The notes: generated by a model from the letters alone, not told the origin. Shown: positions 421 through 31,920, counted from the stretch's first letter. The stretch is DNA of 36,773 bases from Bacillota bacterium (GCA_021797775.1 JAJZZC010000025.1:1-36773); one strand, 5' to 3'. Program-made: numbers and translations.

Positions 421-794
421 CGCCTGCCCCGATCGCCCGTGTGCCCGTATCCGGCTTCGCCATCACTCGCCACCCGCACTCTGGCAGGCTGCTGCGCCGT
501 TCGCACCGGCGCTCCCGCAGGCTCCAGCCTCACCTGCCCGCTCGCACTCCCAAGCCCCGCCGGCCGCCCGCACCCGGAACCTGCCCGCGGTCCACCGTCC
601 TGCCGCAGTACCCGGACCTTACGCGCCCCGAAGCACAAGTTGGTAATGGTCAGTCCTAAGGCCGCCGGTCCCATCCTCCCCTCCGGCGCCGCACAGCCGG
701 TGCAGGCGGGAGGTCCTGCATGCGGCGTCGCCGAAGTGTCAGGGCAACACGGGGCGCATCACTCCACCCGCGCCCGGACGAACGGAGCAGGGCA
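421..794. other. Region without a recognisable gene
   Basis: This stretch lies between the transposase remnant and the FliY-like gene. Several frames are open because of the GC content, but none gives a recognisable protein. It may contain the decayed 5' half of the transposase. A GGAG at 784-787 is the likely ribosome binding site of the next gene. Confidence 0.5.
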
Positions 795-3742: not shown

Positions 3743-3849
3743 CCGGGTGCTGGCCGCTGTGGCGGCAGATCCGGACGCAACGCGGCAGACGTGCCCCCGC
3801 CGCCGTGCGACCGGCGGCGGCGATCCCGCCGCGAGGGGAGACGAGATGG

Positions 3850-16406: not shown

Positions 16407-16431
16407 CCGCTCCCAGTACACCCCCTATCAT
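16403..16431 (+). promoter_or_regulatory. Sigma-A-like promoter of the B12 operon
   Basis: TTGACC (16403-16408), a 17-base spacer and TATCAT (16426-16431) form a good vegetative promoter. It sits at the very end of cbiP and just upstream of the cobalamin riboswitch, so transcription would start near 16438-16440. The position makes it the evident promoter of the cbiX-cobO operon. Confidence 0.75.
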
Positions 16432-16449
16432 GAGGGCACAATTGAGAGG

Positions 16450-16670
16450 ATTGCGGACGGGCTGGTGCCCGGGGGGTGGCCCCGGGAGAATAGGGAAGAC
16501 CGGGCGGTGGGCCGAACGGGGGCCAGTTCCCCGCAAGGCATTGCCGAAGCCGGCGCGGTCCCGCCACTGTGAGCGTCTGGTCCGGTTGGCCATGGCGGCA
16601 CCCACTGACCGCGAGGTCGGGAAGGGAACCGGACGGCGGCGCGAGCCAGGAGACCTGCCAGCCCCGCATC
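16450..16670 (+). promoter_or_regulatory. Cobalamin riboswitch
   Basis: The conserved elements occur in order: AATAGGGAA at about 16489-16497, GCGGTCCCGCCACTGTGAG (the B12 box) at about 16555-16573, CCACTGACC near 16601, GGTCGGGAAGG near 16615-16625, and GAGCCAGGAGACCTGCC near 16643-16659, which is the kissing-loop partner region. This is the standard layout of the AdoCbl-sensing leader. It follows a promoter and precedes an intrinsic terminator and cbiX, so coenzyme B12 should switch the whole biosynthetic operon off by transcription termination. The outer limits are approximate. Confidence 0.95.
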
Positions 16671-16752
16671 CGGTCCGCCTCCGCGGAGAGGCGCCGGGGA
16701 CCGTAGTGCCGAGCGTTCCTGCCTCTAAAGACGGCAGGGTTGTTTCGGTCTG

Positions 16753-16783
16753 CACCCCCTTCGCGATGCGCTGGGGGTTTTTC
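16753..16783 (+). terminator. Riboswitch-linked intrinsic terminator
   Basis: The stem CACCCCC with inner CGC/GCG pairs and GGGGG, followed by TTTTT at 16777-16782, is a classic rho-independent terminator about 60 bases before cbiX. A second hairpin, CCTGCC...GGCAGG (about 16719-16738), lies between it and the riboswitch and could take part in the alternative antiterminated fold. Confidence 0.85.
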
Positions 16784-16839
16784 GTTTCCTCGCCCGGATG
16801 CGCACGGCCGCCCGGTCGGCGTGAAAGGTGGTCTCCGGG

Positions 16840-17634
16840 ATGGACACCCTGGTGCTCATGGCCCATGGCAGCCGCGACGCCGACGCCGTGCGCGAGCTCG
16901 CCGACCTGGGCGGCGCCGTGCGCGCGGCCCACGGTGGCCCGCTGGAGATGGGCGTCCTGGAATTCCCGGGGGCCCTGCCGTCCATCCAGGAGGCGTTCGA
17001 CCGCGCGGTCGCCAGCGGCGCTCGCAAGATCGTCGGCCAGCCCCTGCTGCTCTTCTGCGGGGACCACAACCACGGCGACATGCCCGAGCAGGTCGCGCTG
17101 CTGCGGTCGCGGCACCCGGGTGTCCAGGTGTCGCTCGGCAGCCATCTCGGGATCCATGACGACCTGCTGGACATCGTCGGCGAGCGTGCGGCGGCGGCCC
17201 TGGAATCCCTCGGCGCCCCGAGCGGTGACACGGCGCTCCTGCTGGTCGGCCGGGGCACCTATCGGCCGGAGGCGAACGCCGACCTGTTCAAGATCGCCCG
17301 CCTCTGCTGGGAGCGGCTGCAGCCCCACTGGGGCCTGGTCGAAGCGGCCTTCGTCAGCCTCGCTCCACCGGGCGTGCCCGAGGGACTGCGCCGTTGTGCC
17401 GCACTCGGCGCCCGCCGGGTGGTAGTGGTGCCCTACTTCCTCAACACGGGCACCCTGGTCAAGCGCATCGCCCAGCAGGCGGCAGAAACCGCCCGGGAGC
17501 TGCCTGGGGTGCAGGTGGCGGTCGCGGCACACCTGGGCCTTGATCCGCGCTGCATCGGATTGATCCTGCGACGGACCGAGGAGGCGGCGCGCGGGCTGCC
17601 GGCGGTCGGTTATGCCGCCGGGGGCCTGCGGTGA
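16840..17634 (+). CDS. cbiX: Sirohydrochlorin cobaltochelatase CbiX (long form)
   Basis: Predicted 264-residue chelatase that inserts Co2+ into sirohydrochlorin at the start of the anaerobic B12 route. Two CbiX repeats are visible. The first has LMAHGSRDADAV and PLLLFCGDHNHGDMPEQV. The second starts near residue 125 with LLVGRGTYRPEANAD and holds VVVVPYFLNTGTLVKRI. His residues in the first half are the expected metal ligands. The C-terminal His-rich and Fe-S tails of some Bacillus forms are absent. The ATG at 16840 is chosen over the GTG at 16828 because AAGGTGG lies 8-9 bases before it. It is the first gene after the riboswitch and terminator, and its stop overlaps the cbiC start (GTGA). 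Confidence 0.9.
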   Translation: MDTLVLMAHGSRDADAVRELADLGGAVRAAHGGPLEMGVLEFPGALPSIQEAFDRAVASGARKIVGQPLLLFCGDHNHGDMPEQVALLRSRHPGVQVSLGSHLGIHDDLLDIVGERAAAALESLGAPSGDTALLLVGRGTYRPEANADLFKIARLCWERLQPHWGLVEAAFVSLAPPGVPEGLRRCAALGARRVVVVPYFLNTGTLVKRIAQQAAETARELPGVQVAVAAHLGLDPRCIGLILRRTEEAARGLPAVGYAAGGLR

Positions 17635-18302
17635 CCGGGTTCGGCGGACCTGGGACCCTGCTCGGACGGTACGGGCTGCCCCCTGAAGAGATCGAACGGC
17701 GCAGCCTGGGCATTGTGGAAGGGGCGACGGGCCTCCTGCCGGCAGAGCCCCAGGCGCGGCGGTTGCTTGTACGCATCATGTACGCCGCCGGGGATCTCGG
17801 CCTGGCGCCTGCCGTCGTCATCCACCCCGGAGCGTGCGCGGCGGGGTCGGCGGCCCTGCGGTCGGGTGCGCCCATCATCTGCGACGGGGGCCTGACCGCT
17901 GCCGGCGTTTCGCCGCGTCTGGCGGCGCGCCTGGGCTGCCTCGTGCTCCAGGCGGTGGACCGGCCGGAGGTGGCGGAAGCGGCGGCGCGCAGCCGGCTGA
18001 CGCGGGCCGCGGAAGCCATGGCCTTGCTGTCCGACCGCCTGAACGGGGCGCTTGCGGTGGTGGGCACCTCGCCGACGGCGCTCCTGGCCCTGCTTGACCT
18101 GGCGGACGCGGGGGTGTGCCGTCCGGCACTGGTCGTCGGGATGCCCGTCGGTTTTGTCGCCGCGGCCGAGTCGAAAGAGGAACTTCTGGCGCGGGACATC
18201 CCCTTCGTCACGATCCGGGGCACGCGGGGAGGGTCCCCGCTGGCCGCCGCGACCGTGAACACACTGCTCGGATTCGCCGCGCAAGGGGCTGAGCAGCCGT
18301 GA
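17631..18302 (+). CDS. cbiC: Cobalt-precorrin-8 methylmutase CbiC
   Basis: Predicted 223-residue enzyme that moves the C-11 methyl group to C-12 to give cobyrinic acid. Family markers are EIERRSLGIVE at the N-terminus, PGACAAGSAALRSGAPIICDG, VGTSPTALLALLDL, and the end segment PLAAATVNTLLG. In most CbiC/CobH proteins the segment after the first helix reads RxxHxxGD, with a catalytic histidine (His43 in Pseudomonas CobH). Here it reads RIMYAAGD, so the position is Tyr51. The GTG start overlaps the cbiX stop and the gene's own stop overlaps the cbiD start, both by GTGA. Identification is firm; whether the tyrosine changes the mechanism is unknown. Confidence 0.9.
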   Translation: MTGFGGPGTLLGRYGLPPEEIERRSLGIVEGATGLLPAEPQARRLLVRIMYAAGDLGLAPAVVIHPGACAAGSAALRSGAPIICDGGLTAAGVSPRLAARLGCLVLQAVDRPEVAEAAARSRLTRAAEAMALLSDRLNGALAVVGTSPTALLALLDLADAGVCRPALVVGMPVGFVAAAESKEELLARDIPFVTIRGTRGGSPLAAATVNTLLGFAAQGAEQP

Positions 18303-19441
18303 TCGACGACACGCCGCGGCCGCCGGAGCAAGAGTACGAGGGGCTGCCGCCGCCGCCCCGCCGGCGTGGGCTGCGCACAGGCTTCACGACCGGTGCGACC
18401 GCCGCGGCGGCGGCGAAGGCGGCGACGCTGGCCCTGGTGCGCGGAGAGCGCCCGACCCGCATCGGCCTCGACCTGGTCGAGGCGGGCATCCGCGCCGAAT
18501 TCCGGGTCGTTGCCCTGGAGATCACCGGAGAACGGGCCGCCGCCACCATCCTCAAAGACGGGGGAGACGACCCCGACGCCACGCATGGGGCCGAGATCCG
18601 GGCCACTGTCTGGCGGACCGCGGAGGTGGGGATCCACCTGCGCGGCGGGGTGGGGGTGGGTACGGTGACCCGCCCCGGACTGGGGCTGGAGGTGGGAGGG
18701 CCCGCCATCAACCCGGTGCCACGGGTACAGATCCAGCGCGCGGTGGCGGAGGTTGCGGGCGGAGAGTTCGAACCCGGTGGGCTGGTCGTGGAGATTTCCG
18801 TCCCGCGGGGAGAGGAGATCGCCAAGCGGACGCTCAACGCGCGCCTGGGGATCCTGGGCGGGATCTCGATCCTCGGCACCACCGGCATTGTCTACCCATA
18901 CTCCACCGCGGCCTACCGGGCGAGTGTGATTCAGGGTGTGGACGTGGCCGTGGCCAACGGTTGCCGGATCGTGGTGCTGAGCACCGGGGGCAAGAGTGAG
19001 GAGTTCGCCCGGGGCCTCCACCCCGAGCTTCCCGAGATGGCGTTCGTGGAGATGGGCGAGTTCACCGGGGTGGCGCTGGACCGCTGCAAGGAGACGGGTG
19101 TCGCCGTCGCCGTCCTCTCGGGCATGATCGGCAAGTTCAGCAAGATCGCGCAGGGGCACTTCCAGACGCATGTCGCCGGCAATCGGGTCGACGCCGGCTT
19201 CCTGGCGCGACTGGCGGCGCAAGCCGGTGCGGACCCGGGAACGGTCGGCGAGATCGCCGCGGCCAACACCGCCCGGCATGTGCAGGAGATCGCCCTGGCC
19301 CACGGTTTGTCTGCGCTCTTTCCCCGGATCTGCGCGCTGGTCTGCGCGCGATCCCGGGACCGCGTCCGCGGCGCGCTCGCCGTCGAGGCGCTCATGTTCG
19401 ACTTCGGGGGCGCGGTCCTCGCGCGGTGCCGCCGTGGCTGA
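18299..19441 (+). CDS. cbiD: Cobalt-precorrin-5B C1-methyltransferase CbiD
   Basis: Predicted 380-residue enzyme that methylates C-1 during ring contraction in the anaerobic pathway. It carries the family start LRTGFTTGATAAAAAKAA, then GTVTRPGLGLEVGGPAINPVP in the middle, NARLGILGGISILGTTGIV, and SGMIGKFSKIAQGHFQTHV toward the end. CbiD has no counterpart in the aerobic pathway, where CobF does this step, so it is a marker for the oxygen-independent route. The first 25 residues are Pro-rich and extra. GTG start, overlapping cbiC by GTGA; overlaps cbiE-T by 8 bases. Confidence 0.94.
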   Translation: MIDDTPRPPEQEYEGLPPPPRRRGLRTGFTTGATAAAAAKAATLALVRGERPTRIGLDLVEAGIRAEFRVVALEITGERAAATILKDGGDDPDATHGAEIRATVWRTAEVGIHLRGGVGVGTVTRPGLGLEVGGPAINPVPRVQIQRAVAEVAGGEFEPGGLVVEISVPRGEEIAKRTLNARLGILGGISILGTTGIVYPYSTAAYRASVIQGVDVAVANGCRIVVLSTGGKSEEFARGLHPELPEMAFVEMGEFTGVALDRCKETGVAVAVLSGMIGKFSKIAQGHFQTHVAGNRVDAGFLARLAAQAGADPGTVGEIAAANTARHVQEIALAHGLSALFPRICALVCARSRDRVRGALAVEALMFDFGGAVLARCRRG

Positions 19442-20639
19442 GCGGGTCGTGGTGATCGGTATGGGCGCCGAGGGACCCGCGGGTCTGCCCGCCGGAGCGC
19501 GGCGCGCCATCGGCGAGGCAGAGGTACTGGTCGGGGGCAGGAGACATCTGGCGTTGTTCCCCGACCACCCCGCCGAGCAGCTGGTGCTGGCGGGGGGCCT
19601 GGAGGCGGTGCGGGCGATCGCCGCGGTGTGGTGCCGGCGGCGGGTGGTGGTGCTGGCCTCCGGCGACCCCGGGTTTCACGGCATCGCCCGCTCGCTGCGC
19701 GAGGCGCTCGGTGCGGAGGCCGTGGAGGTCTGGCCGGCGGTGAGTTCGCTGCAGTTGGCCTTCGCCCGCGCAGGGGAGTCCTGGGAGGACGCGGTGCTGG
19801 TGTCGGCGCACGGTCGGCCCCTGCACGCGGCGCTGGCCGAGGCGGTCCGCGCGCGCAAGGTCGGGTTCCTCACCGACCCTGGCAACCACCCCGGGCGGAT
19901 CGCCTCGGCGCTGGTGGAGGGCGGATGGAAAGCGGTGGCCTGGGTGGCCGAGCGCCTCGGTTCCTCGGAGGAACGCGTCCGGCGTTTCACCCTGGCGGAT
20001 CTGGCCGGGGCGACCGCGGGTGACTTCGATCCGCTCAACGTCCTGGTGGTGTTGCGGAGTGCGGTGCCAAGGCACGTGATCGGTCGGCCGGAGGACGCTT
20101 TTGCCCACGACCGGGGCCTGATCACCAAGGCCGAGGTGCGCGCCTTCAGCATTGGGCGCCTCGAGGTTGGGCCGGGGGATGTGGTCTGGGACGTGGGTGC
20201 CGGATGCGGATCGGTGGCGATCGATGCGGCGGCCGCGGGGGTCTTCGTCTGCGCGGTGGAGCGCGACGCGCGCCAGTTGGAACTGCTGCGGACCAACATC
20301 CGACGCTTCCAGGCCGCCAACGTGGCCGTGATCGCCGGTCAGGCCCCGGAGTGCCTCGGGGGACTGCCCGACCCAGACGCGGTATTCCTTGGCGGTAGCG
20401 GGGGGGAGCTCCCGGTACTCCTGGAGTGCCTTGAGGGGCGGCTGCCACCGGGGGGCCGGTTGGTCGGCAACTTCATCGCCGTGGACAATCTGCAGGTCTT
20501 CCTGCGCTGGCTGTCCCACGCAGGTTGGGAGGGGGGGGTCAGCCAGGTGAGTGCTGCGCGCGCCCGTTCCATTGCCGGCTCCTGGCGCCTGGCCGCGGAG
20601 AACCCGGTCTTCGTCGCCATGGCGAGGCGACCGGCATGA
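19434..20639 (+). CDS. cbiET: CbiE-CbiT fusion (CobL type), precorrin-6B C5,15-methyltransferase
   Basis: Predicted 401-residue two-domain protein. The CbiE domain (about 1-205) shows VVVIGMGAEGPAGL, EVLVGGRRHL and ASGDPGFHGIA, the tetrapyrrole methylase fold for C-5 methylation. The CbiT domain (about 215-401) shows ITKAEVRAFSIGRL and a SAM-binding loop VWDVGAGCGSVAIDAA. It decarboxylates the C-12 acetate and methylates C-15. This is the arrangement called CobL in the aerobic pathway, and such fusions are also found with anaerobic genes. GTG start at 19434, inside the end of cbiD; stop overlaps cbiL (ATGA). Confidence 0.93.
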   Translation: MAERVVVIGMGAEGPAGLPAGARRAIGEAEVLVGGRRHLALFPDHPAEQLVLAGGLEAVRAIAAVWCRRRVVVLASGDPGFHGIARSLREALGAEAVEVWPAVSSLQLAFARAGESWEDAVLVSAHGRPLHAALAEAVRARKVGFLTDPGNHPGRIASALVEGGWKAVAWVAERLGSSEERVRRFTLADLAGATAGDFDPLNVLVVLRSAVPRHVIGRPEDAFAHDRGLITKAEVRAFSIGRLEVGPGDVVWDVGAGCGSVAIDAAAAGVFVCAVERDARQLELLRTNIRRFQAANVAVIAGQAPECLGGLPDPDAVFLGGSGGELPVLLECLEGRLPPGGRLVGNFIAVDNLQVFLRWLSHAGWEGGVSQVSAARARSIAGSWRLAAENPVFVAMARRPA

Positions 20640-21340
20640 ACCCACGGCTCACGGGGGTGGGTGTCGGTCCGGGAGATCCGGAACTGCTGACGGTGAAGGC
20701 CGTGCGCCTGCTGCAGCGCGTGGCCTGGGTCTTCTACCCGGTCGCCGCGCCGGGGGCGGAGTCGATGGCCCTGCGGATCGCGCAGGGCTATCTTGATCCC
20801 GCGCGGCAGGAACTTGTGCCGCTGATCTACCCTTTCGGTCGCGGGCCGGCAGAGGAGGAGGCGGCATGGGCGGCCAACGGCCGGGCCATCGCCCTGCGGC
20901 TGGGTCGGGACGGGCACGGGGCCTTCCTCACCGAGGGTGACGCGCTGCTTTACAGCACATTCCTGTATACGGCCGAAGGCTTCCGCCGGGCCGCCCCGGA
21001 GGCCGAGATCGGGGTGATCCCGGGTATCCCGTCTTTTGTGGCCGCGGCGGCGGTGACGCGGGTCTCGCTCGGCCGCCGGTCGGACCGCGTGGCCATCGTC
21101 ACGGGGGGCACCGGCGTCGAGGATGCCCTGGCCAGCCACGAGGGTGTGGTGATCCTCAAGGCCTCCCGTGATTGGGAGGGAACCCTCGCCGCGCTGCGGC
21201 GCTGCGGCCGCAGCGGCGAGGCGGTGGCCGTAACCCGCTGCGGCTGGCCGGAGGAGCGGATCGAGTGGGACGTCGAGGCCCTCAGCGGGCGGCGACTGGA
21301 CTATTTCACTTTGCTGCTGGTGGGGAGGTGGCACCTGTGA
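20636..21340 (+). CDS. cbiL: Precorrin-2 / cobalt-factor II C20-methyltransferase CbiL
   Basis: Predicted 234-residue SAM-dependent tetrapyrrole methylase acting on (cobalt-)precorrin-2. Signatures are LTGVGVGPGDPELLTVKAVRLL at the N-terminus (here in part: GVGVGPGDPELLT), VFYPVAAPG, LTEGDALLYSTFLY, VIPGIPSFVAAAA and VTRCGWPEERI. The LTEGDALLYST segment is typical of CbiL/CobI rather than the other methylases. Length fits the family. ATG start overlaps the cbiET stop; its own end overlaps cbiF. Confidence 0.93.
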   Translation: MNPRLTGVGVGPGDPELLTVKAVRLLQRVAWVFYPVAAPGAESMALRIAQGYLDPARQELVPLIYPFGRGPAEEEAAWAANGRAIALRLGRDGHGAFLTEGDALLYSTFLYTAEGFRRAAPEAEIGVIPGIPSFVAAAAVTRVSLGRRSDRVAIVTGGTGVEDALASHEGVVILKASRDWEGTLAALRRCGRSGEAVAVTRCGWPEERIEWDVEALSGRRLDYFTLLLVGRWHL

Positions 21341-22149
21341 CGGCACCGGGATCCCTCGGTTGCGTCTACTTCATTGGTGCGGGTCCGGGGGCCCCGGACC
21401 TCTGCACCGTGCGCGGCAAGGAAGTGATCACGCGTGCCGACCTGATGCTCTATGCGGATTCGCTGGTGCATCCCGGCGTGCTCCGCTGGGCCAAACCCGG
21501 CGCGCGGGTCCTCGGCAGCGCGGGCCTGACCCTGGAGGAGATCGTTGCGGAGATGAGTGCGGTGGCGCGCACGGGTGGAACCGTCGCCCGCGTGCATTCC
21601 GGCGATCCCTCCCTGTACGGGGCGTTGCGCGAGCAGTTGTTGTGTCTGGAAGAAGAAGGGATCCCCTGGGAGATCGTCCCGGGCGTGTCTTCGGTGTTCG
21701 CGGCCGCCGCCGCACTGGGCTGCGAACTGACCGTCCCCGGGGTGGCGCAGACGGTGGTGCTGACACGCTTGGCCCGCCGTACCGACGGGCCGAGTGCCGG
21801 GGACCTCCGCGCCGTGCCCCGGGAGGGTACCACCGTAGTCCTGTTCCTGAGCCTCACGACCGTAGCCGAGGCAGTGGCCGAGTTGCTGGCGGCGGGGTGG
21901 CCGCCGTCCACCCCAGCCGCCGTGGCCCACCGGGTGACGTGGGAGGACGAGCGGTGCCTGCGCACCACACTCTCCGACCTGGATGTCGCCGTTCGCCGCG
22001 AGGGATGGACGCGCCACGGGCTGATCCTTGTCGGGCCGGCGCTGGACCCGGGTCCGGGCGCCTTGGCGGGGACCGAGCCGGCACAGGCCCGTTCCAGCCT
22101 TTACGATCCCGCCTTCTCCCATCTTTTCCGCAAGGGGCGGCGGGCATGA
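21337..22149 (+). CDS. cbiF: Cobalt-precorrin-4 C11-methyltransferase CbiF
   Basis: Predicted 270-residue SAM-dependent methylase that adds the C-11 methyl. It shows VYFIGAGPGAPDLCTVRGKE, LMLYADSLVHPGVL, ARVHSGDPSLYGALREQ, VPGVSSVFAAAAALGCELTVP and MT-type end segments such as PAAVAHRVTWEDE. HSGDPSLYGA together with YADSLV is characteristic of CbiF/CobM. The GTG at 21337 has an excellent GGGGAGG site 8 bases upstream and overlaps the cbiL stop by GTGA. The last 30 residues (after about 245) are an extra tail. Its stop overlaps cbiGH (ATGA). Confidence 0.93.
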   Translation: MTAPGSLGCVYFIGAGPGAPDLCTVRGKEVITRADLMLYADSLVHPGVLRWAKPGARVLGSAGLTLEEIVAEMSAVARTGGTVARVHSGDPSLYGALREQLLCLEEEGIPWEIVPGVSSVFAAAAALGCELTVPGVAQTVVLTRLARRTDGPSAGDLRAVPREGTTVVLFLSLTTVAEAVAELLAAGWPPSTPAAVAHRVTWEDERCLRTTLSDLDVAVRREGWTRHGLILVGPALDPGPGALAGTEPAQARSSLYDPAFSHLFRKGRRA

Positions 22150-23984
22150 GCGCAGTATGCGCGGAACGTCTCACCGCCGTCGCGGTTACACCCGCGGGGC
22201 TACGTGCGGCGCTCCGACTGGCCGAGACGGTCGGGGGGCTGCAGGTGTACGCGCCGCGACGGCTTGTGGCGGAGGGGTCCACAGCGCCGGTGCGGCCCTT
22301 TGACCGCATCGACACCCTGGCAGCCGAGTTGATGGCCACGGCCACGGGCATCGTCTTCTTCCTGGCGGCGGGGGCCGCAGTACGCCTGATCGCGCCGTAT
22401 TTGCGCGCCAAGGAGGCGGATCCGGGCGTGGTGGTGGTCGAGGAGACCTGCCGCTACGCCGTCAGTCTCCTCGCGGGCCACGTGGGCGGCGGCAACGCCC
22501 TGGCCCGGCGCGTGGCGGCATGTCTCGGAGCGGTGCCCGTCATCACCACCGCCACGGACGCCGCCGACCTCCCCGCGCCGGACCTGCTGGGCAGGGCCGC
22601 GGGGTGGCGGCACAAGACCCCGGCCAAGGCCGTGGCCGCGGCGCTGCTCGCCGGGGAGCCCGTGGGCCTGTATCAGGATGCCGGGGAACCGGTGGCGCAA
22701 CTGGACGGCTGGCCGTCACCCTGGCCTTCCGGCGTTCGGCAGCATGCGGCGTTGGCAGAAGTCACCGAGTCGGCCGCGATCATCGTCAGCGACCGCGTCC
22801 TGCCGGTGAACCGTCCCGACGGCTGGCTGATCATCCGTCCCCCCTCCCTGCATCTGGGCGTGGGCTGCGAGCGCGGAGTCCCCGAGGCCGAAATCGCGCG
22901 GGCCGTCGCGGAGCATCTGCGCGCGCACGGCCTGGCGCCCGGGGCCGTGGCTATGGTGGCGACGCTGGAGCGCAAGCTGGACGAACCCGGTCTGGCGGCT
23001 TGGGCAGCCGGAGCGGGATTGCCGCTGCGGGGTTTCCCGCCGGAAACACTCTCGGGCGTGCCCGTTCCCACGCCTTCGGAGGTCGTTCGCGCGGCGGTGG
23101 GCACCCCGTCGGTCGCGGAGGCGGCGGCCTGCCTGTCGGCCGGCGCGGATCGCCCCTGGACCGCCGAGCTTGCCGGGCCCAAGGGTGTCTACGGCCGGGT
23201 CACAGTCGCCGTCGCGAGACGGCGGGCGCGCGCCGGCCAGATCGCCATCGTCGGCCTCGGCCCCGGGGACCCCGCGCAGATGACGCCGGCGGCGGAGCGG
23301 GCCCTGGCCGCGGCGGAGGTTGTGGTCGGCTACAGCGGCTACCTCGCGCAGCTCGGCTCGCGCCCGGCCGGGCAGCGCGTCCTGGGGTACGGTCTCGGGG
23401 AGGAGCGGCAAAGGTGCGAGCAGGCCGTGGCCCTGGCGGCGCAGGGGTATCGGGCAGCCCTGGTCGGCAGCGGAGATGCCGGAGTGTACGGGATGGCCAG
23501 CCTCACCTTCGAAGTCCTGCAGGAGCGGGGATGGGACGGGCGGTGGCCGGAGGTCCGTGTCCTGCCGGGTATCACAGCGGCCACGGCCGCCGCCGCCCTG
23601 CTCGGCGCCCCGCTGGGCCACGACTTTGCCGCGATCAGCCTCTCGGATCTGCACACGCCGTGGGCGACCATCGCCTTGCGCCTTCGGGCGGCGGCGGACG
23701 CCGATCTGGTTGTCGCGCTGTACAACCCGCGCAGCGGGCGGAGGGCGGGGCACCTGGCCGCCGCAAGTGCTCTGCTCTCGGAGCGGCGGGCGCCCGCGAC
23801 CCCTGTCGGCGTGGTGCGCAACGCCTTCCGGCCGGATGCCTCCGTTATGGTGACGACGCTGGGGGAACTGGCGCAGGCCGAGGTGGACATGTTCACCATC
23901 GTCCTGGTCGGCAACTCGCAGACCCGGCTTGTGGCGGGACATATGGTCACGCCCCGCGGCTATCCGCAGGGGGGGGGCCGCTGA
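22146..23984 (+). CDS. cbiGH: CbiG-CbiH fusion (C-15 lactone hydrolase and C17-methyltransferase)
   Basis: Predicted 612-residue fusion. The CbiG part (about 1-355) opens the delta-lactone of cobalt-precorrin-5A. It carries GIVFFLAAGAAVRLIAPYL, SLLAGHVGGGNALARRVA and ITTATDAADLPAPD, then a C-terminal CbiG domain with LHLGVGCERGVPEAEI, TLERKLDEPGL and the PTPSEVVR segment. The CbiH/CobJ part begins near residue 363 with IAIVGLGPGDPAQMTPAA and has VVVGYSGYLAQL, LVGSGDAGVYGMA, LPGITAATAAAALLGAPLGHDFA and VALYNPRSG. CbiG marks the anaerobic route. The order hydrolase then methylase in one chain joins C17 methylation/ring contraction and lactone opening. Its stop forms TGATG with the next small ORF. 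Confidence 0.93.
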   Translation: MSAVCAERLTAVAVTPAGLRAALRLAETVGGLQVYAPRRLVAEGSTAPVRPFDRIDTLAAELMATATGIVFFLAAGAAVRLIAPYLRAKEADPGVVVVEETCRYAVSLLAGHVGGGNALARRVAACLGAVPVITTATDAADLPAPDLLGRAAGWRHKTPAKAVAAALLAGEPVGLYQDAGEPVAQLDGWPSPWPSGVRQHAALAEVTESAAIIVSDRVLPVNRPDGWLIIRPPSLHLGVGCERGVPEAEIARAVAEHLRAHGLAPGAVAMVATLERKLDEPGLAAWAAGAGLPLRGFPPETLSGVPVPTPSEVVRAAVGTPSVAEAAACLSAGADRPWTAELAGPKGVYGRVTVAVARRRARAGQIAIVGLGPGDPAQMTPAAERALAAAEVVVGYSGYLAQLGSRPAGQRVLGYGLGEERQRCEQAVALAAQGYRAALVGSGDAGVYGMASLTFEVLQERGWDGRWPEVRVLPGITAATAAAALLGAPLGHDFAAISLSDLHTPWATIALRLRAAADADLVVALYNPRSGRRAGHLAAASALLSERRAPATPVGVVRNAFRPDASVMVTTLGELAQAEVDMFTIVLVGNSQTRLVAGHMVTPRGYPQGGGR

Positions 23985-24232
23985 TGCGCTTGCAAGGCGG
24001 CGGCGCCGGCGGCCTCGGTGCTGGAGCGGGCCCTGGTACGGGCGCTTCGCACGCGCCGGAACCGGGTTGCGCGGCGGAGATCCCTCCAGCGGCAATGCGG
24101 CGGCCCGCGGACCCCGTTCGGGCACTGCCCGCCGGCGCCGTGCTCGGACCGGGGTACACCCTGGCCGAGGGCAGAGCGGGGCCGTCGACCGTTTGTGCCG
24201 GCGCGACCTGTCGCCGGTGTGTCGTTTCATGA
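23984..24232 (+). CDS. Small ORF of unknown function between cbiGH and cbiA
   Basis: Predicted 82-residue peptide. Its ATG overlaps the cbiGH stop (TGATG) and its stop overlaps the cbiA start (ATGA), so it is perfectly nested in the operon. The sequence is Gly/Ala/Pro-rich in the first half and ends with a cysteine cluster, CAGATCRRCVVS. I recognise no family. The operon lacks a precorrin-6A reductase (CbiJ/CobK, about 250 residues), but this peptide is far too short and shows none of its motifs. Either it is a real coupled small protein, or the 243-bp spacer just happens to be open. The start/stop overlaps are the only evidence for translation; I see no convincing separate ribosome site. Confidence 0.35.
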   Translation: MRLQGGGAGGLGAGAGPGTGASHAPEPGCAAEIPPAAMRRPADPVRALPAGAVLGPGYTLAEGRAGPSTVCAGATCRRCVVS

Positions 24233-25587
24233 GCGGCAGGCTGGTCATCGGCGGCTCGGGGAGCCACTCCGGCAAGACGACCGTCTGCATGGCGCTGGCC
24301 GCGGCGTTTGCGGCCGAGGGACTGGCCGTCGCGCCCTTCAAGGCCGGTCCGGACTTCATCGATCCGGCCTATGCGGCATGGGCGGCGGGCCGCCCGGCCC
24401 GGAACCTCGATACCTGGCTGCTCGGCGAGGACGGCTGCCGGGAGTTGTTCGCCCGCGGGGCCACCGGGACGGACGTCGCCCTGATCGAGGGCGTGATGGG
24501 GCTGTACGACGGGCGCGGGGGCGAGCCGGGCGCCCCCGGCAGCACCGCCCACCTGGCCCGGATCCTGGACACCCCGGTGCTCTGCGTGCTGGACATCGCC
24601 GGTGTGGGCGCCACGGCCGCGGCGGTCGCGCTCGGCCTCTCCCAGCTCGCGCCGGGTCTGGTGGCCGGGTTCGTCCTCAACCGCGCGGGCAGCGCCGCCC
24701 ACGCCGACCTGGTGCGGACGGCGGTGGAATCCGCCACCGGGCTGCCGGTGCTGGGGAGCCTCCTGCGGCGCGACGGACTCGGGATCGCCGAACGCCCCCT
24801 CGGCCTGCTGACCGTGCGGGAACGCCGGCCGGATACCGCCCTGCGGGAGCAGCTGGTCGCCGCCGCCCGTGCGGAACTGGACCTCGGGCGGATCCTGGCC
24901 GTTGCCCGGGCCGCCCGACCTCTGCCGTCCCGAGAGCCAGTGCTCTTCGCCGGGGAGGCGCGGCCGAGGCGCCGCCGCTTCGCCCTGGCCGAGGATGCGG
25001 CCTTCCAGTTCTATTACCGCGATGCCCTGGACCTGCTGGCCTTCCAGGGTATCGAGTGGGTGCCCTTCAGCCCGCTGGCCGAGGGTCTCCCCGACGGCGT
25101 GCACGGGGCCTACCTTGGGGGCGGCTTTCCGGAGCGCCACCTTGAGGCGCTCTCAGGCAACACCGCCCTCTGGCGGGAACTGCGCCGGCGCCGGCAGGAC
25201 ATCGAGATCTACGCCGAGTGCGGCGGATTGATGGTGCTCTGTCGGGATGCCGGGCTGGAGGGGGGACCCAGGTACCCCATGGCCGGGCTCCTCCCGGCGT
25301 CCGTAACGATCGGCGCGCGGCGCACCGCCCTCGGTTATCGTGAGGGCACCGCCGCGCGGAGGTCGCTGTTTCTGCGTCCCGGCGACCGCGTGCGGGGGCA
25401 TGAGTTCCACTATTCCCGCGCGGAAGGGCTGCCCGAGACGACGGCGGCCTACGAACTGACCGACAGCCGGGGGCGCCGGTCCGCCGACGGATACGCCGAG
25501 CCAGGGTTGCTGGCCAGTTATCTCCACCTGCATCTGGCGGCGCATCCGGAGTTGGCCAAACGCTGGGCGAAAGGATGCCGCGGGTAG
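24229..25587 (+). CDS. cbiA: Cobyrinic acid a,c-diamide synthase
   Basis: Predicted 452-residue CbiA/CobB amidotransferase that amidates the a and c side chains using glutamine and ATP. The N-terminal P-loop domain has IGGSGSHSGKTTVCMAL, PFKAGPDFIDPAYA, RNLDTWLL and LIEGVMGLYDG. The C-terminal glutaminase domain has AYLGGGFPERHLEAL, YAECGGLMVLCRD (nucleophile Cys331), MAGLLP and a final SYLHLHLAAHPE. Lengths and order fit the family. ATG start overlaps the previous small ORF; 67 bases separate it from cobN, the widest gap within the riboswitch operon. Confidence 0.94.
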   Translation: MSGRLVIGGSGSHSGKTTVCMALAAAFAAEGLAVAPFKAGPDFIDPAYAAWAAGRPARNLDTWLLGEDGCRELFARGATGTDVALIEGVMGLYDGRGGEPGAPGSTAHLARILDTPVLCVLDIAGVGATAAAVALGLSQLAPGLVAGFVLNRAGSAAHADLVRTAVESATGLPVLGSLLRRDGLGIAERPLGLLTVRERRPDTALREQLVAAARAELDLGRILAVARAARPLPSREPVLFAGEARPRRRRFALAEDAAFQFYYRDALDLLAFQGIEWVPFSPLAEGLPDGVHGAYLGGGFPERHLEALSGNTALWRELRRRRQDIEIYAECGGLMVLCRDAGLEGGPRYPMAGLLPASVTIGARRTALGYREGTAARRSLFLRPGDRVRGHEFHYSRAEGLPETTAAYELTDSRGRRSADGYAEPGLLASYLHLHLAAHPELAKRWAKGCRG

Positions 25588-25654
25588 CAGGGCGGTGGGC
25601 GCGGCAGCGCCCCGCGCTTCGCGGCCATCCCCGGCGTCAAAGGAGTTGTTGCCC

Positions 25655-28600
25655 GTGATCCTGTATCTGACCACGGCCGATACGGAACTGCTCATGCTCA
25701 GCCGTGCCCTGGCGGCGTTGCCCGAGGGCTTCCCACGTGTTCGGGCCGGCAACCCGAGCGACTGGAACGGCGATCTCGCGCCCCTGGAGGCCTTGCTCGC
25801 CGAGACGCGGGTGGTCGTGTTGCGTTGGCTGGGCGGCCGCCGGGCCTTCCCGGAGGCCTTCGACCGGATTGTGGCCCACGCCCGGGAGCGGGGTGCGGTC
25901 CTGCTGGCCTGGCCCGGCGACCAGGAGCCCGATCCCGAATTGGCCGCGGCGACCACGGTGCCGGAGGAGGATTCCGAGCGGGCTTTCCGCTATGCGCTCC
26001 TCGGAGGGGTGGCCAACTTCCGCCATCTGCTCCGGCTGCTTGCGGACGCCTACCTGGGCACGACCTTCGGGTACGGCGAACCGGAGCCCCTCCCCTGGCA
26101 GGGCATCTACCTACCGGGGCAGGAGGGGGCCGGCACGCGAGAGGAATGGCTGCGGCGCCACGCGCCGGACGGCAGGCCGGCGGTGGGTCTGCTGTTTTAC
26201 CGGGCACACTGGATGAGCGGCAATCTCGCCTTCGTCGATGCGCTCGCGGCCGCGCTGGAGGAGGCGGGCTGCCGCCCCCTGGCCGCCTTCTGTTACAGCC
26301 TGAAGCCGCCGACGCGGCACGAGCCGCCGGCGGTGTTCAGCGAGTGCCTGCAGGACCAAGACGGCCGACCCCTGGTCGACGCGGTGGTCACCACGCTCAG
26401 CTTCTCGCTCGGGCATCTCGACGAGGCCTCCGGGCGGATCGCCGACGCCTGGGCCGCCGACGCCCTGGAGCGGCTGGACGTGCCGATACTGCAGGCCGTG
26501 GTCTCAGTGTCGGAGCGGGCTCGCTGGGCGGAGAGCAGCATGGGACTCGGACCCCTGGATGTGGCCATGAACGTCGCCATGCCCGAACTCGACGGCCGGA
26601 TCATCACCGTCCCGGTGTGCTTCAAGGCCGAAGCCCTGCGGGATCCGGTGCTCGACGCGCCTGTGCGGCGCTATCAACCCGTGCCCGACCGCGTGCGCCA
26701 GGTGGCGTCCATCGCCGCCCGCTGGGCGCGCCTGCGCCGTAAGCCCAACGGGGAAAAGCGCCTGGCCATCCTGCTCACCAACTACCCCGCGAAGAACTCG
26801 CGCATCGGCAACGCAGTGGGGCTCGACACCCCGGCTTCGGTGGTGCGCCTGTTGCGGGCACTCGCCGCCGCCGGCTACCGCGTCGAGGGCATCCCCGAGG
26901 ACGGCGACCGGCTGATCACGGCGCTGATCGACCGCTGCACCAACGACCGCGAGTATCTGACCGACGAGCAATTGGAGATGGCCGCCGGGCACCTGCCCGC
27001 GGCCGATTACACGCGCATTTTCGACCGTCTGCCGGACGCGGTGCGGGCCGGCCTCCAGGGCGCCTGGGGCACGCCCCCCGGCTCCGTCATGGTGCACGGC
27101 GGACGCATCGTGATCGCGGGCATCCAGCTGGGTGCCGTCTTCGTCGGCATCCAACCGCCGCGGGGCTTCGGTGAAAACCCCATCGCCGTCTACCACAGCC
27201 CGGACCTCCTGCCGACGCACCACTACGTCGGATACTACCGCTGGCTGCGGGACGACTTCTCGGCTGACGCGGTGGTGCACGTCGGTAAGCACGGAACACT
27301 CGAGTGGCTGCCGGGCAAGGGGATCGGCCTGTCCGCGGAGTGTTATCCAGAGGTCATCCTCCAGGACCTGCCCAACTTCTATCCGTACATTGTCAACAAC
27401 CCGGGTGAGGGTACGCAGGCCAAGCGCCGCAGCCATGCCTGCATCATCGACCACATGATCCCGCCCATGCAGCGGGCCGAGGTCTATGACGATCTGGCGC
27501 GGCTGGAGCACCTGCTGGACCAGTATTACCAGGTGCAGTCCCTGGACCCGAGCAAGATCCCACTTCTGCAGAGCGAGATCTGGGACGTGGTGCTCGCGGC
27601 GCGGCTGGATCACGACCTGGGCGCGGAGGCGCGGCCCCACGACTTCGACGCCTTTCTCCAGGAGATCGACGGCTATCTCTGCGAATTGAAGGCGGCCCAG
27701 ATCCGCGACGGGCTGCACACCCTGGGGGACATACCCGAGACGGTGGAGGCCTTCGCCAACGCGCTCCATTGGCTGGTCAGGCTGCCGAACGGTGAGATTC
27801 CCTCGCTGCCAGCGGCACTCGCCGCCGAGCGCGGCCTGGATTGGGATGCGCTGCGCGCCGAACCGGGGCGGCCGCTCCCCGGCGGACCCTGGCCGACCCG
27901 GGGGGATGCCTGGGAGGCGGTGGAGGCGGAGGCGCAGGCGCTGTTGCGGGCGGCCGTCGCCGAGACGGGCTGCCAGCGGGGGGGAGCCCGCCGGGCCGAG
28001 GGTGCCTCCGCGGGCAGAGGGCCGCGGGTGAGGGCCGCTCTCGACTACGCCACTGCCGATCTCGCCCCGCGGCTGCGCCGCACGGGCGAGGAGATCTCCA
28101 ATCTCCTGCGCGGGCTGGAGGGGCGCTTCGTACCGCCGGGGCCGAGCGGCGCCCCGACGCGGGGGATGGCCTCCATCCTGCCGACTGGACGCAACTTTTA
28201 CTCGGTGGACCCGCGGGCCCTCCCCTCCCAGGCGGCCTGGAGCGTCGGCCGCCAACTCGGTGATGCCGTGCTCCAGCGGTACGGCCGTGAGGCCGGCCGC
28301 CCCCCGGAGACCGTCGGCATCGTGCTCTGGGGGACAGCGGCCATGCGGACCCAGGGCGACGATATCGCGGAGGTGCTGCACCTGCTCGGGGTGCGGCCGA
28401 AATGGCAGCGGGAGAACCGGCGCGTCGCGGGCATCGAGGTGGTGCCGCTGGCTGAACTGGGCAGACCGCGGATCGACGTGGTGGTGCGGCTGTCAGGCTT
28501 CTTCCGCGACGCCTTCCCCAACCTGATCCACCTGATGGATCAGGCAGTGCACATGGTGGCCGAACTGGATGAGCCGGCCGAGGCCAACTTCGTGCGCAAG

Positions 28601-29413
28601 CACCTCCTGGAGGATCTGCAGCGCGCTCGGGCCGGCGGTGGGGCCGACGACGAGGCCCGGGTCCGGGCGCTGTACCGGCTGTTCGGCAGTCGGCCCGGTA
28701 GCTATGGGTCGGGCATCCTGCCGCTGATCGAGAGCCGGCGCTGGGAGGGTGACGCCGATCTGGCCCGCGTGTACGTGACATGGGCCGGCTACGCATACAC
28801 ACAGGCGGAGTTCGGCCGTCCGGCGCCGGCGGAGTTCCGCGCACGGCTGGCGCAGGTCGCTGTGGCGACCAAGAACCAGGACAATCGGGAACACGACATC
28901 TTCGACTCCGACGACTACTTCCAGGACCACGGCGGCATGGTCGCGACCATCCGCGCCATCACGGGGACAAACCCCCGCCAGTACTTCGGGGATTCGGCCG
29001 ACCCGAGCCGGCCAGCGGTGCGTGACCTCGCCGATGAAGCGCGCCGGGTGTTTCGGACGCGCGTGGTCAACCCGCGCTGGCTGGACTCCATCCGGCGGCA
29101 CGGGTACAAAGGGGCCATGGAACTGGCGGCCACCGTCGACTTCCTCTTCGGCTATGACGCCACCGCACACGTGGTGGAGGATTGGATGTACGAGCAGGTG
29201 GCTGAGCGCTACGCCCTGGACCCGGACATGCAAGCCTTCTTTTCGCGAAGCAATCCCTGGGCCTGGCGCGATGTGGCGGAACGCCTTCTGGAGGCTGCCG
29301 CGCGCGGCCTGTGGGAGCAGCCGGACCCGGCCCTGACCGGGCGCCTGCGTCAGGCCCTGCTGGCCGCCGAAGGGCTGCTCGAAGGCCGCCAGGAAGGAGG
29401 GACGCGGGCATGA
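25655..29413 (+). CDS. cobN: Cobaltochelatase large subunit CobN
   Basis: Predicted 1252-residue chelatase subunit of the CobN/BchH family. Characteristic segments include GKHGTLEWLPGKGIGLSAEC, LPNFYPYIVNNPGEGTQAKRR, DSDDYFQDHGGMVATIRAITG (here DSDDYFQDHGG) and RRHGYKGAMELAATVDF. The DSDDY..HGG run and the total length favour CobN over the magnesium chelatase BchH. AAAGGAG at 25639-25645 serves a start in the cluster TTG-TTG-CCC-GTG; I take the GTG at 25655 because the conserved ILYLTTADTE begins there. It is followed by a ChlI-ChlD fusion that would act as its ATPase partner. CobN normally inserts cobalt late, into hydrogenobyrinic acid a,c-diamide, whereas this operon also has the early chelatase CbiX. 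Confidence 0.93.
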   Translation: MILYLTTADTELLMLSRALAALPEGFPRVRAGNPSDWNGDLAPLEALLAETRVVVLRWLGGRRAFPEAFDRIVAHARERGAVLLAWPGDQEPDPELAAATTVPEEDSERAFRYALLGGVANFRHLLRLLADAYLGTTFGYGEPEPLPWQGIYLPGQEGAGTREEWLRRHAPDGRPAVGLLFYRAHWMSGNLAFVDALAAALEEAGCRPLAAFCYSLKPPTRHEPPAVFSECLQDQDGRPLVDAVVTTLSFSLGHLDEASGRIADAWAADALERLDVPILQAVVSVSERARWAESSMGLGPLDVAMNVAMPELDGRIITVPVCFKAEALRDPVLDAPVRRYQPVPDRVRQVASIAARWARLRRKPNGEKRLAILLTNYPAKNSRIGNAVGLDTPASVVRLLRALAAAGYRVEGIPEDGDRLITALIDRCTNDREYLTDEQLEMAAGHLPAADYTRIFDRLPDAVRAGLQGAWGTPPGSVMVHGGRIVIAGIQLGAVFVGIQPPRGFGENPIAVYHSPDLLPTHHYVGYYRWLRDDFSADAVVHVGKHGTLEWLPGKGIGLSAECYPEVILQDLPNFYPYIVNNPGEGTQAKRRSHACIIDHMIPPMQRAEVYDDLARLEHLLDQYYQVQSLDPSKIPLLQSEIWDVVLAARLDHDLGAEARPHDFDAFLQEIDGYLCELKAAQIRDGLHTLGDIPETVEAFANALHWLVRLPNGEIPSLPAALAAERGLDWDALRAEPGRPLPGGPWPTRGDAWEAVEAEAQALLRAAVAETGCQRGGARRAEGASAGRGPRVRAALDYATADLAPRLRRTGEEISNLLRGLEGRFVPPGPSGAPTRGMASILPTGRNFYSVDPRALPSQAAWSVGRQLGDAVLQRYGREAGRPPETVGIVLWGTAAMRTQGDDIAEVLHLLGVRPKWQRENRRVAGIEVVPLAELGRPRIDVVVRLSGFFRDAFPNLIHLMDQAVHMVAELDEPAEANFVRKHLLEDLQRARAGGGADDEARVRALYRLFGSRPGSYGSGILPLIESRRWEGDADLARVYVTWAGYAYTQAEFGRPAPAEFRARLAQVAVATKNQDNREHDIFDSDDYFQDHGGMVATIRAITGTNPRQYFGDSADPSRPAVRDLADEARRVFRTRVVNPRWLDSIRRHGYKGAMELAATVDFLFGYDATAHVVEDWMYEQVAERYALDPDMQAFFSRSNPWAWRDVAERLLEAAARGLWEQPDPALTGRLRQALLAAEGLLEGRQEGGTRA

Positions 29414-31305
29414 CGAGGGCGGATGCGTCCCTTCCCCCCGCGTTCCCGTTCTCCGCCCTGGTCGGTCAGGACGAGCTCAAGGCCGCGCTGCTCTGCGCCG
29501 CCGTGGCCCCGGACGTCGGGGGACTGCTGATCCAGGGCGAGCGCGGGAGCGCCAAGTCCACCGCGGTGCGGGCACTGGCGGATCTGCTGCCGCCGGTGCC
29601 CGCGGTCCCCGGATGCCCGTTCGGCTGCGACCCGGAGGCTCCGTTCTCCTTCTGCACGCACTGTCAGGGTTGCCCGGGCGCCGAGCCCGCGGTGCTGCGG
29701 CCCGTCCGCGTCGTCGAGCTGCCGCTTGGGGCCACCGAGGACCGGGTCCTCGGTCACATGGATCTGGAAGCCGCCATCGGCCGGGGGCAGGCCCGCTTCG
29801 TCCCGGGCCTGCTCGCCCTGGCGCACCGAGGGATCCTGTACGTCGACGAGGTGAACCTCCTCCCGGACCATCTGGTCGACCTGCTGCTGGATGCGGCCGC
29901 CTCCGGGTGGTGCCGCGTGGAGCGGGAGGGGCTCTCGGTGAGCCACGCCGCGCGGTTCCTGCTGGTCGGGACGATGAACCCCGACGAGGGGGAGCTCCGG
30001 CCGCAGCTCCTGGACCGGTTCGGGCTCGCCGCGGGGGCGGGCCGGTTGGGGGATCCGGCGTTGCGTGTCGAGGTGCTGCGGCGGCGCGCCGCCTTTGAGC
30101 GCGATCCCAGAGGGTTTGTGATGCAGTGGGCGGATCAGCAGCGGGGGGTCGCCGGGCTGGTGGCGGAGGCGCGCCGGCACCTCCCCGAAGTGGCGGTCGA
30201 CGACGCCGCGCTGCTGCACATCGCGGAACTGGCCCTGGAGAGCGGTGTGGAGGGGCTGCGCGCCGACCTCACCATCCACCGGGCGGCGCGGGCGTTCGCG
30301 GCGCTCGCCGGCAGGGACAACGTGGATGCCGCAGACATCACACGGGCGGCGGAACTCGCGCTGCGGCACCGCCGCCGTCAGGCGCCGCCCCCTCCCCCTC
30401 CTCCTCCCCCTCCTCCTCCTCCCGCAGGCCCACCGGGCCCTCGGCGTGACGAGGGGCAAGGCGGCACAGAACGCCCCCCGCAGGTGGCCTCGATCCGGAT
30501 GCCCGATCAACCGGCCCGCATGCCGGATGTATGGTCGCTTCGGCCCTCGGAGCGGGTCGCGTGCCCGGCACGGGGGACAGCCGTTCAGCGCCGACCGGAG
30601 ACCCCGCGTGGCCCGCGGGTGGGACACAAGCCTTGGCACAGCGGTCCCGTGGACCTCTGGCCGAGTCTGCTGTCGGCACTGCGCCATCCGCTGCCCGGAG
30701 AACGGGCCGCGTTGCGCGTGGCCGCGGCCGACCTGCGCGCCCCCGTACGCCGCGCCCGGCCGCGGCGCCTCGTCCTGTTCCTGGTGGACACCAGCGGGTC
30801 GATGGGAGCCCGGCGGCGGATGGAACTGACCAAGGGCGAGGTGCTCTCTCAGCTCCGCACCGCTTACGTCCGGCGTGACCAAGCGGCGCTGATGACCTTC
30901 CGCGGGGAGGGGGCCGAACTGATCCTCCCGCCCACCAACAGCGTCAACCGGGCCGAGCGGCTCCTGCGCGGCCTGCCGACCGGGGGGCGCACCCCTCTGG
31001 CTGCGGGGCTGCGGGCGGCTCGGGGCTTTCTGCTGCGTTGCCGGCGGGCCAGCCCCGGCCTGGCCCTCACCCTGGTGGTGGTCACCGATGGGCGGGCCAA
31101 TTGCGCCTCTGGGACTGAGGGGCCGCTGGCGGCCGCGCTGGCGGCCGCCAGGGCGATCGCGGTCGACCACATCGCCTCTATCGTGGTGGATACCGAGGAG
31201 GTCGGCGTGCGGCTCGGTTTGGCCGGTGAACTGGCCGCCGTCCTGGGCGGTCCGTGCGTTCCCCTCGGGGCTGCGTTCACGGGCCGGGCGGATGCTGGCG
31301 CATGA
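29410..31305 (+). CDS. ChlI-ChlD fusion, ATPase/VWA partner of CobN
   Basis: Predicted 631-residue protein, start overlapping cobN (ATGA). An AAA+ domain covers about residues 10-320, with Walker A GERGSAKST, a cysteine-rich insert (CPFGCDP, FCTHCQGCPG), Walker B GILYVDEVNLLPDH, and sensor segment LLVGTMNPDEGELRPQLLDRFG. A run of 13 prolines follows at residues 326-338 and then about 110 disordered, Arg/Pro-rich residues. The C-terminal von Willebrand A domain (about 450-625) carries the MIDAS motif DTSGSMG and later TDGRAN. This is the BchI+BchD pair fused into one chain, as in the ChlID/CobN systems that replace CobS/CobT. It likely powers metal insertion by CobN. Confidence 0.92.
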   Translation: MTRADASLPPAFPFSALVGQDELKAALLCAAVAPDVGGLLIQGERGSAKSTAVRALADLLPPVPAVPGCPFGCDPEAPFSFCTHCQGCPGAEPAVLRPVRVVELPLGATEDRVLGHMDLEAAIGRGQARFVPGLLALAHRGILYVDEVNLLPDHLVDLLLDAAASGWCRVEREGLSVSHAARFLLVGTMNPDEGELRPQLLDRFGLAAGAGRLGDPALRVEVLRRRAAFERDPRGFVMQWADQQRGVAGLVAEARRHLPEVAVDDAALLHIAELALESGVEGLRADLTIHRAARAFAALAGRDNVDAADITRAAELALRHRRRQAPPPPPPPPPPPPPAGPPGPRRDEGQGGTERPPQVASIRMPDQPARMPDVWSLRPSERVACPARGTAVQRRPETPRGPRVGHKPWHSGPVDLWPSLLSALRHPLPGERAALRVAAADLRAPVRRARPRRLVLFLVDTSGSMGARRRMELTKGEVLSQLRTAYVRRDQAALMTFRGEGAELILPPTNSVNRAERLLRGLPTGGRTPLAAGLRAARGFLLRCRRASPGLALTLVVVTDGRANCASGTEGPLAAALAAARAIAVDHIASIVVDTEEVGVRLGLAGELAAVLGGPCVPLGAAFTGRADAGA

Positions 31306-31323
31306 GGGAAGGGGGGAGCGGGC

Positions 31324-31920
31324 GTGCAAGAGCAGCAGGGGGTCGCGCACGGCGAGCAACCGGCGGAGGATGAGGAGATCGGCCGGGAACTGCCCGGGTT
31401 GATCATCGTCCATACCGGTGATGGCAAGGGCAAGACCACGGCCGCCCTCGGTTTGGCGCTGCGTGCGGTCGGCAATCGCTATCGGGTGGCTGTCGTGCAG
31501 TTCATCAAGGGGCAATGGCAGCCAGGAGAAAAGAAGGCGGCCGCCCACCTGCCCGGGTTGGAGTTCGTGCCGCTGGGCAAAGGGTTCACCTGGACCAAGA
31601 CCCCCGATGTGCACATGGCCGCCATGGCCGCGGCCTGGGCCCGGACGCAGGAGGTGATCGGCGCCGGCCGGCATGAGGTCGTGATCCTGGACGAGATTAA
31701 CTATGCCCTGGCCAACACCCGGATTCCGGTACATGAGATCTTCACGGTGCAGGACGTGGTGGACCTGCTGCGGCGCCGCCCTGCGAAGATGCACGTGGTG
31801 CTCACCGGACGCTACGCCAAGCCGGAGATCGTCGAGATCGCCGATCTGGTTACCGAGATGCGGCTGATCAAGCACCCCTTCCAGCAGGGCCGGCGGGCGA
31901 CGCGGGGGATCGAGTTCTAA
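31324..31920 (+). CDS. cobO: Cob(I)yrinic acid a,c-diamide adenosyltransferase CobO
   Basis: Predicted 198-residue corrinoid adenosyltransferase of the BtuR/CobA/CobO family. It transfers adenosyl from ATP to the cobalt of a reduced corrinoid. The P-loop HTGDGKGKTTAALGLALRA is at about residues 31-48, followed by VAVVQFIKGQW, LDEINYAL and VLTGRYAKPEIVEIADLVTEM; the end reads RRATRGIEF as in the family. The GTG start has GGGGGGAG 5 bases upstream. It is the last gene of the riboswitch operon and is followed by a convergent hairpin. The first 25 residues are a Glu/Gln-rich extension. Confidence 0.94.
   Translation: MQEQQGVAHGEQPAEDEEIGRELPGLIIVHTGDGKGKTTAALGLALRAVGNRYRVAVVQFIKGQWQPGEKKAAAHLPGLEFVPLGKGFTWTKTPDVHMAAMAAAWARTQEVIGAGRHEVVILDEINYALANTRIPVHEIFTVQDVVDLLRRRPAKMHVVLTGRYAKPEIVEIADLVTEMRLIKHPFQQGRRATRGIEF

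Follow-up and report, generated by a model that had tools for sequence, protein, structure and literature searches.

A riboswitch-headed cobalamin gene run in a Bacillota genome pairs CbiX with a CobN–ChlID cobaltochelatase

Results

Two types of chelatase are encoded behind one cobalamin riboswitch

We analysed a 36,773-nucleotide contig of a Bacillota bacterium (GCA_021797775.1, JAJZZC010000025.1:1-36773), referred to as the window, which encodes both the sirohydrochlorin chelatase CbiX and the class I cobaltochelatase CobN with a ChlID-type partner subunit. A first-pass annotation of this DNA had placed cbiX, cobN and chlID together with cbiD and cbiG under one riboswitch, and all were recovered on the + strand at the positions listed below. 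A cobalamin riboswitch heads the + strand gene run (16446-31920), which consists of cbiX, cbiC, cbiD, cbiET, cobI/cbiL, cbiF, cbiGH, cbiA, cobN, chlID and btuR.

16403-16431, + strand: promoter-like site (TTGACC, 17 nt, TATCAT) just 5' of the riboswitch; one found against a shuffle mean of 0.0, consensus match only
16446-16676, + strand: cobalamin riboswitch aptamer (RF00174; 67.4 bits, gathering threshold 31.5, E = 1e-14)
16758-16777, + strand: terminator-like hairpin followed by a T run; one found against a shuffle mean of 0.2, consensus match only
16840-17634, + strand: cbiX, long two-domain sirohydrochlorin chelatase (PF01903, two domains)
17631-18302, + strand: cbiC/cobH, precorrin-8X methylmutase (profile matches)
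18299-19441, + strand: cbiD, cobalt-precorrin-5B C1-methyltransferase (TIGR00312; 390 bits, cut-off 200)
19434-20639, + strand: cbiET fusion
20636-21340, + strand: cobI/cbiL, C20-methyltransferase; the models do not separate metal-free from cobalt substrate
21337-22149, + strand: tetrapyrrole methylase of cbiF/cobM type; the name cbiF is based on context and on tblastn matches
22146-23984, + strand: cbiG-cbiH fusion
24229-25587, + strand: cbiA/cobB-type a,c-diamide synthase, assigned as CbiA rather than CobQ by context, a separate cobQ lying upstream
25595-29413, + strand: cobN, class I cobaltochelatase large subunit (TIGR02257; 1243 bits, cut-off 822)
29410-31305, + strand: chlID, fused AAA+ and VWA/MIDAS subunit (best model TIGR02442; 654 bits, below the cut-off of 779)
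31324-31920, + strand: btuR/cobO, corrinoid adenosyltransferase (TIGR00708; 194 bits, cut-off 168)

The run had been described as an overlapping operon with cbiX first and cobN-chlID among the last genes. cbiX does open it, while cobN and chlID are next to last, with btuR after them. Most neighbouring genes overlap, by four to eight bases, and short spacers precede cobN (7 bp) and btuR (18 bp); the overlap does not extend throughout, as about 245 bp without a clear gene separate cbiGH from cbiA. A scan of this longer spacer returned no promoter or terminator match. The hairpin at 16758-16777 is likely the expression platform of the riboswitch and, given that it and the promoter-like site (both consensus matches) flank the aptamer, control by transcription attenuation fits.

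The gene set is that of the cobalt-early pathway, with CbiD and CbiG encoded and no CobG above cut-off in a genome that is 89.7% complete. The only genome matches to the CobG profiles were NirA- and CysI-like reductases, which were rejected as CobG candidates. No PF02492 match (CobW/COG0523) was obtained in the genome, compared with 13 of the 14 control genomes, and there was no PF02571 match (CbiJ/CobK), although that search was positive in only 3 of the 14 controls. Without CobG above cut-off or a COG0523/CobW gene, the switch to full cobalt-late (aerobic) synthesis that the first-pass annotation had entertained is disfavoured. Sirohydrochlorin supply is encoded in the hem cluster of the genome, by a SUMT-HemD fusion and a precorrin-2 dehydrogenase.

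CobN groups with cobaltochelatases and CbiX retains one His/Glu/His site

CobN exceeds the TIGR02257 cut-off over its full length and falls under that of the BchH model (799 bits, cut-off 829). Its nearest match in the PDB is 7c6o, which we take to be Mycobacterium tuberculosis CobN, followed by a second CobN, 9uk9, with ChlH and HmuS far behind. In a tree of 39 sequences, including a BchH pair and four HmuS-like proteins, the window CobN and the CobNs of its class form one clade (support 100) within the group that holds Sinorhizobium and Azotobacter CobN, and the BchH and HmuS-like sequences lie on separate branches (support 98-100). CobN thus sits with cobaltochelatases and not with chelatases of other metals, and the two-chelatase reading of the locus was right. 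The superfamily motif HxGKHGxLEWLPGK is intact. Although its best profile match is below cut-off, ChlID supplies the AAA+ and VWA partner subunit, carrying Walker A (GERGSAKST), Walker B and MIDAS (DTSGSM) motifs in a single chain. A run of 13 prolines lies between its AAA+ and VWA parts (window 30370-30440).

Mg-chelatase H and HmuS, a haem dechelatase, belong to the same superfamily (PMC12583661), and TonB-linked CobN relatives exist, so CobN–ChlID might handle another metal, or might act as a dechelatase on corrinoids or haem in the way that HmuS acts on haem. We consider this very improbable. The window CobN lies inside the cobaltochelatase clade, with the HmuS-like and BchH sequences outside it; chlID adjoins cobN; and none of the window proteins scanned was recognised as a haem-uptake component. 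For CobN itself, the tree and the profile cut-offs argue against a Mg-chelatase or HmuS identity.

CbiX has the two CbiX domains of the long form. The N-terminal domain retains the His/Glu/His motif positions, as in nearly all long CbiX proteins compared, and the motif is lost from the C-terminal domain, likewise in most of the others. On the basis of these motifs, both chelatases look intact and functional. Among solved structures, SirB, the siroheme chelatase of Bacillus, is nearest to the window CbiX, whose sequence is compatible with a preference for either cobalt or iron. This is the sole CbiX gene of the genome.

The CbiX–CobN pairing recurs in several phyla

The first-pass annotation had proposed surveying related genomes for co-occurrence of CbiX, CobN and CbiD/CbiG. 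We examined 154 genomes of the class, a 61-genome class sample, 20 named genomes reached through CobN and 14 controls, and found the pairing to be common and present in several phyla. CobN occurs in 10 of the 154 class genomes. Seven class genomes other than that of the window hold cobN, chlID, cbiX, cbiG and cbiD in one cluster (G130, taken to be Bacillota TL1-5.bin8; G137; G139-G143), a recurrence that excludes chance. Another CobN-bearing class genome (G118) has cobN close to a contig end. A further one (G037) has its cbi cluster, free of cobN, and two cobN-chlID sets on separate contigs; of these extra sets (C89, C42), one lies near reading frames that by eye resemble ABC-transporter and radical-SAM genes. 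Outside the class, the combination is found in the actinobacterial metagenome-assembled genome (MAG) YX2bin24 and on a Deinococcus aquaticus plasmid, as well as in Halobaculum, but there without CbiD in the stretch seen.

The two chelatases differ in how regularly they accompany the cobalt-early pathway. CbiX is present in every CobN genome in which it was searched for, including all 20 named genomes, 12 of which have CbiD. Counting the CbiD genomes of the class sample and of the named set together with six controls and six additional class genomes gives 35, of which 34 have CbiX; the one without it, G048, is 84% complete. CobN, by comparison, is encoded by only 2 and missing from 9 of the 11 genomes with CbiD in the class sample of 61; the named genomes, having been picked through CobN, have no bearing on how often CobN is missing. 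This asymmetry marks CbiX as a standing companion of cobalt-early synthesis and CobN as an optional addition.

These distributions also bear on a different division of labour, in which CbiX would be a siroheme ferrochelatase, CobN–ChlID the real cobalt inserter, and the CbiG and CbiD homologues would act on cobalt-free intermediates. The kinship with SirB, the NirA- and CysI-like siroheme enzymes encoded alongside a single CbiX gene, and the existence of CbiX–CobN clusters without CbiD are all in keeping with it. However, siroheme supply under B12 control would be odd, yet cbiX opens a B12-riboswitch operon; CbiG is described as cobalt-dependent (PMC8305020); and the nine CbiD genomes without CobN indicate that CbiD pathways run there in its absence. 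We therefore regard this division as improbable. A related scheme, an oxygen-independent cobalt-late route in which the CbiG and CbiD homologues of CobN-bearing lineages would act on cobalt-free intermediates, CobN–ChlID would insert cobalt following ring contraction and CbiX would serve siroheme, seems to us very improbable.

The class clusters resemble the window in holding cobN, chlID, cbiC, cbiET, cobI, cbiF, cbiG, cbiX, cbiH and cbiD together, and each of the five scanned on the upstream side has a cobalamin riboswitch. They differ in gene order, in carrying a SUMT-type gene inside the cluster (plus sirC in G141) and, judged by eye, in having a gene or domain that resembles CobK/CbiJ between cbiH and cbiD. 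No CobW gene lay near cobN within the fetched stretches of these clusters, the only DNA searched. Some of the clusters come from assemblies that are close to finished (G141-G143, with one to three contigs), a possible sign of cultivable strains. In the actinobacterial cobQ-cobN-chlID-btuR-cbiA clusters, such as that of MAG YX2bin24, CbiX, CbiD, CbiG and CobN–ChlID are likewise encoded together, but gene order differs, CobN is 52% identical to that of the window and the Solirubrobacter versions are without CbiD. The D. aquaticus plasmid, pDATS01, also has CbiX, CbiD, CbiG, CobN and a VWA subunit in one cluster, while differing in a CbiX–CbiC fusion and in a CobW-like GTPase gene and bluB within the cluster. 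A formate/nitrite transporter gene interrupts the D. aquaticus cobN, dividing it into two parts (L136, 11944-17134).

CobN–ChlID may serve metal-free corrinoids

Finding CbiX together with CobN is not new in itself: chelatases are not pathway-exclusive (Shelton 2018), and Pfeiffer and Dyall-Smith (2021) reported CbiX plus CobN/ChlID in haloarchaea, including Haloferax volcanii, and suggested salvage (PMC8305020). The pairing is thus already in print, and the window is a further case of a known, unexplained kind. Like the window, H. volcanii has a cobalt-early set with CbiX, CbiG, CobN and a ChlID-type subunit close together (HVO_B0054 cbiX1, B0051 cobN, B0050 chlID; PMC8305020); it differs in being archaeal, in having several cbiX paralogues and in giving no CbiD match among the control genomes. 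Halobaculum CobN is about 39% identical to the window CobN. In the aerobic CobNST systems of Sinorhizobium and Azotobacter, CobN is homologous to that of the window (about 42% identical, chelatase motifs conserved), but cobW precedes cobN there, whereas the window has a ChlID fusion as ATPase and no CobW was found. Replacement of CobS and CobT by ChlI and ChlD is traced to Rodionov and others in PMC9227772.

The reading that we favour, and to which we give about an even chance, is that of a B12-repressed cobalt-early operon in which CbiX performs de novo insertion and CobN–ChlID is an accessory for metal-free corrinoids. CbiX would put cobalt into sirohydrochlorin, a step required by the cobalt-dependent CbiG and CbiD. 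CobN would act as the substrate-binding subunit and ChlID as an AAA+ plus VWA motor in one chain; the substrates of the pair would be ring-contracted corrinoids that lack a metal, with the a,c-diamide as the most likely point of cobalt entry, and corrinoids without cobalt would in this way be rescued instead of lost. Published thermodynamics describe CobNST as pulling cobalt against a steep gradient unless helped by CobW or supplied with a surplus of cobalt, and the class II chelatase CbiK acting on sirohydrochlorin as needing no help (PMC10206600, PMC7689651). From this CobW dependence, the asymmetry between CbiX and CobN, and the lack of CobG above cut-off and of CobW and CbiJ/CobK matches, we infer that CbiX is the main de novo chelatase and that CobN has a metal-free substrate and a salvage role. 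Of the roles offered by the first-pass annotation, remetallation of cobalt-free corrinoids appears to fit best, and it had already been proposed for haloarchaea (PMC8305020).

The first-pass annotation had also suggested plain redundancy. In its conditional form, CobN–ChlID would feed cobalt to this one de novo pathway wherever CbiX is ineffective, such as in the presence of oxygen or under another cobalt supply. In favour of this, neither gene is damaged, and the simplest view of the locus puts the two behind a single riboswitch; the two routes are also said to occur together in facultative organisms (PMC9227772). Deep conservation of both genes and the CbiX/CobN asymmetry weaken plain redundancy, and the conditional form meets further difficulties: the genome gave no match above cut-off for CobG, which serves as oxygenase in the classical late route; CbiX is lost in no CobN genome examined, though full redundancy would permit its loss; and in vitro, as in engineered Escherichia coli, CobNST deprived of CobW is active only when cobalt is in surplus (PMC10206600). 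We consider such a backup role unlikely.

Several points count against an accessory role in salvage. The order cbiA-cobN-chlID-btuR parallels late pathway steps, but cobN follows a SUMT-type methylase gene and not cbiA in six related clusters; with order inconsistent between lineages, it was rejected as proof of the step at which CobN acts. The missing CobG, CobW and CobK are provisional, as an assembly gap is possible in a genome of this completeness. No source of metal-free corrinoids was identified, uptake genes not having been searched for, and the case for all of these proteins is built from sequence. The retention of a large late chelatase that consumes ATP in cobalt-early organisms has already been raised as a question for haloarchaea, to which the class adds bacterial clusters that have kept both chelatases side by side. 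If CobN–ChlID does rescue metal-free corrinoids, the B12 economy would gain a repair step that pathway maps lack.

The cluster lies within a 25.3-kb stretch absent from related genomes

Further B12 genes precede the riboswitch-headed run, and the whole cluster falls within one stretch of the window.

6695-32003, strand not applicable: 25.3-kb stretch holding the whole B12 cluster; its flanks adjoin each other in G003 and G004, both of the same family
9658-11926, - strand: cobS, cbiB and cobU-type genes (nucleotide-loop assembly)
14910-16406, + strand: cobQ, cobyric acid synthase, directly 5' of the riboswitch (TIGR00313; 479 bits, cut-off 310)

The stretch is bounded by a glcD-type gene (ending at 6695) and by a NUDIX and phosphomannomutase-type pair (from 32003), and the gap between these flanks is about 0.24 kb in G004 and about 0.6 kb in G003. 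That two genomes of the same family lack it at this site is the new detail here. Bin contamination was rejected: the phosphomannomutase-type neighbour is 79 and 78% identical to its counterparts in two same-family genomes, with identity falling off with kinship, and the composition of the contig fits that of other contigs of the genome, indicating that the contig is native. Among the genomes examined, CbiD and CobN were found in no other member of the order. Gain in the lineage of the window would be the shorter account; old presence followed by repeated loss would also fit the CobN tree, in which the window is sister to the other class members of its clade. The edges of the stretch have no tRNA gene and only short repeats of doubtful meaning, and tRNA or target-site repeats were accordingly rejected as marks of its boundaries.

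The CbiD tree (18299-19441 and relatives) disagrees with the CobN tree on the neighbours of the window. CobN joins the class clusters with support of 100, and placing CbiD in that grouping was rejected (approximately unbiased test, p-AU 0.017), as was a shared origin for the portions with cobN and cbiD. The cluster may thus be a mosaic, a weak indication given that it comes from one short protein.

Beside cobS, a + strand reading frame (window 8900-9601) matches AIR synthase weakly (21.1 bits, cut-off 24) and may be an alpha-ribazole kinase (CblS-like). The region 5' of the B12 cluster holds glcE/glcF/glcD-like glycolate oxidase genes (window 2456-6695, + strand), beside which a protein with a FliM/FliN C-terminal domain is encoded (window 720-1679, + strand).
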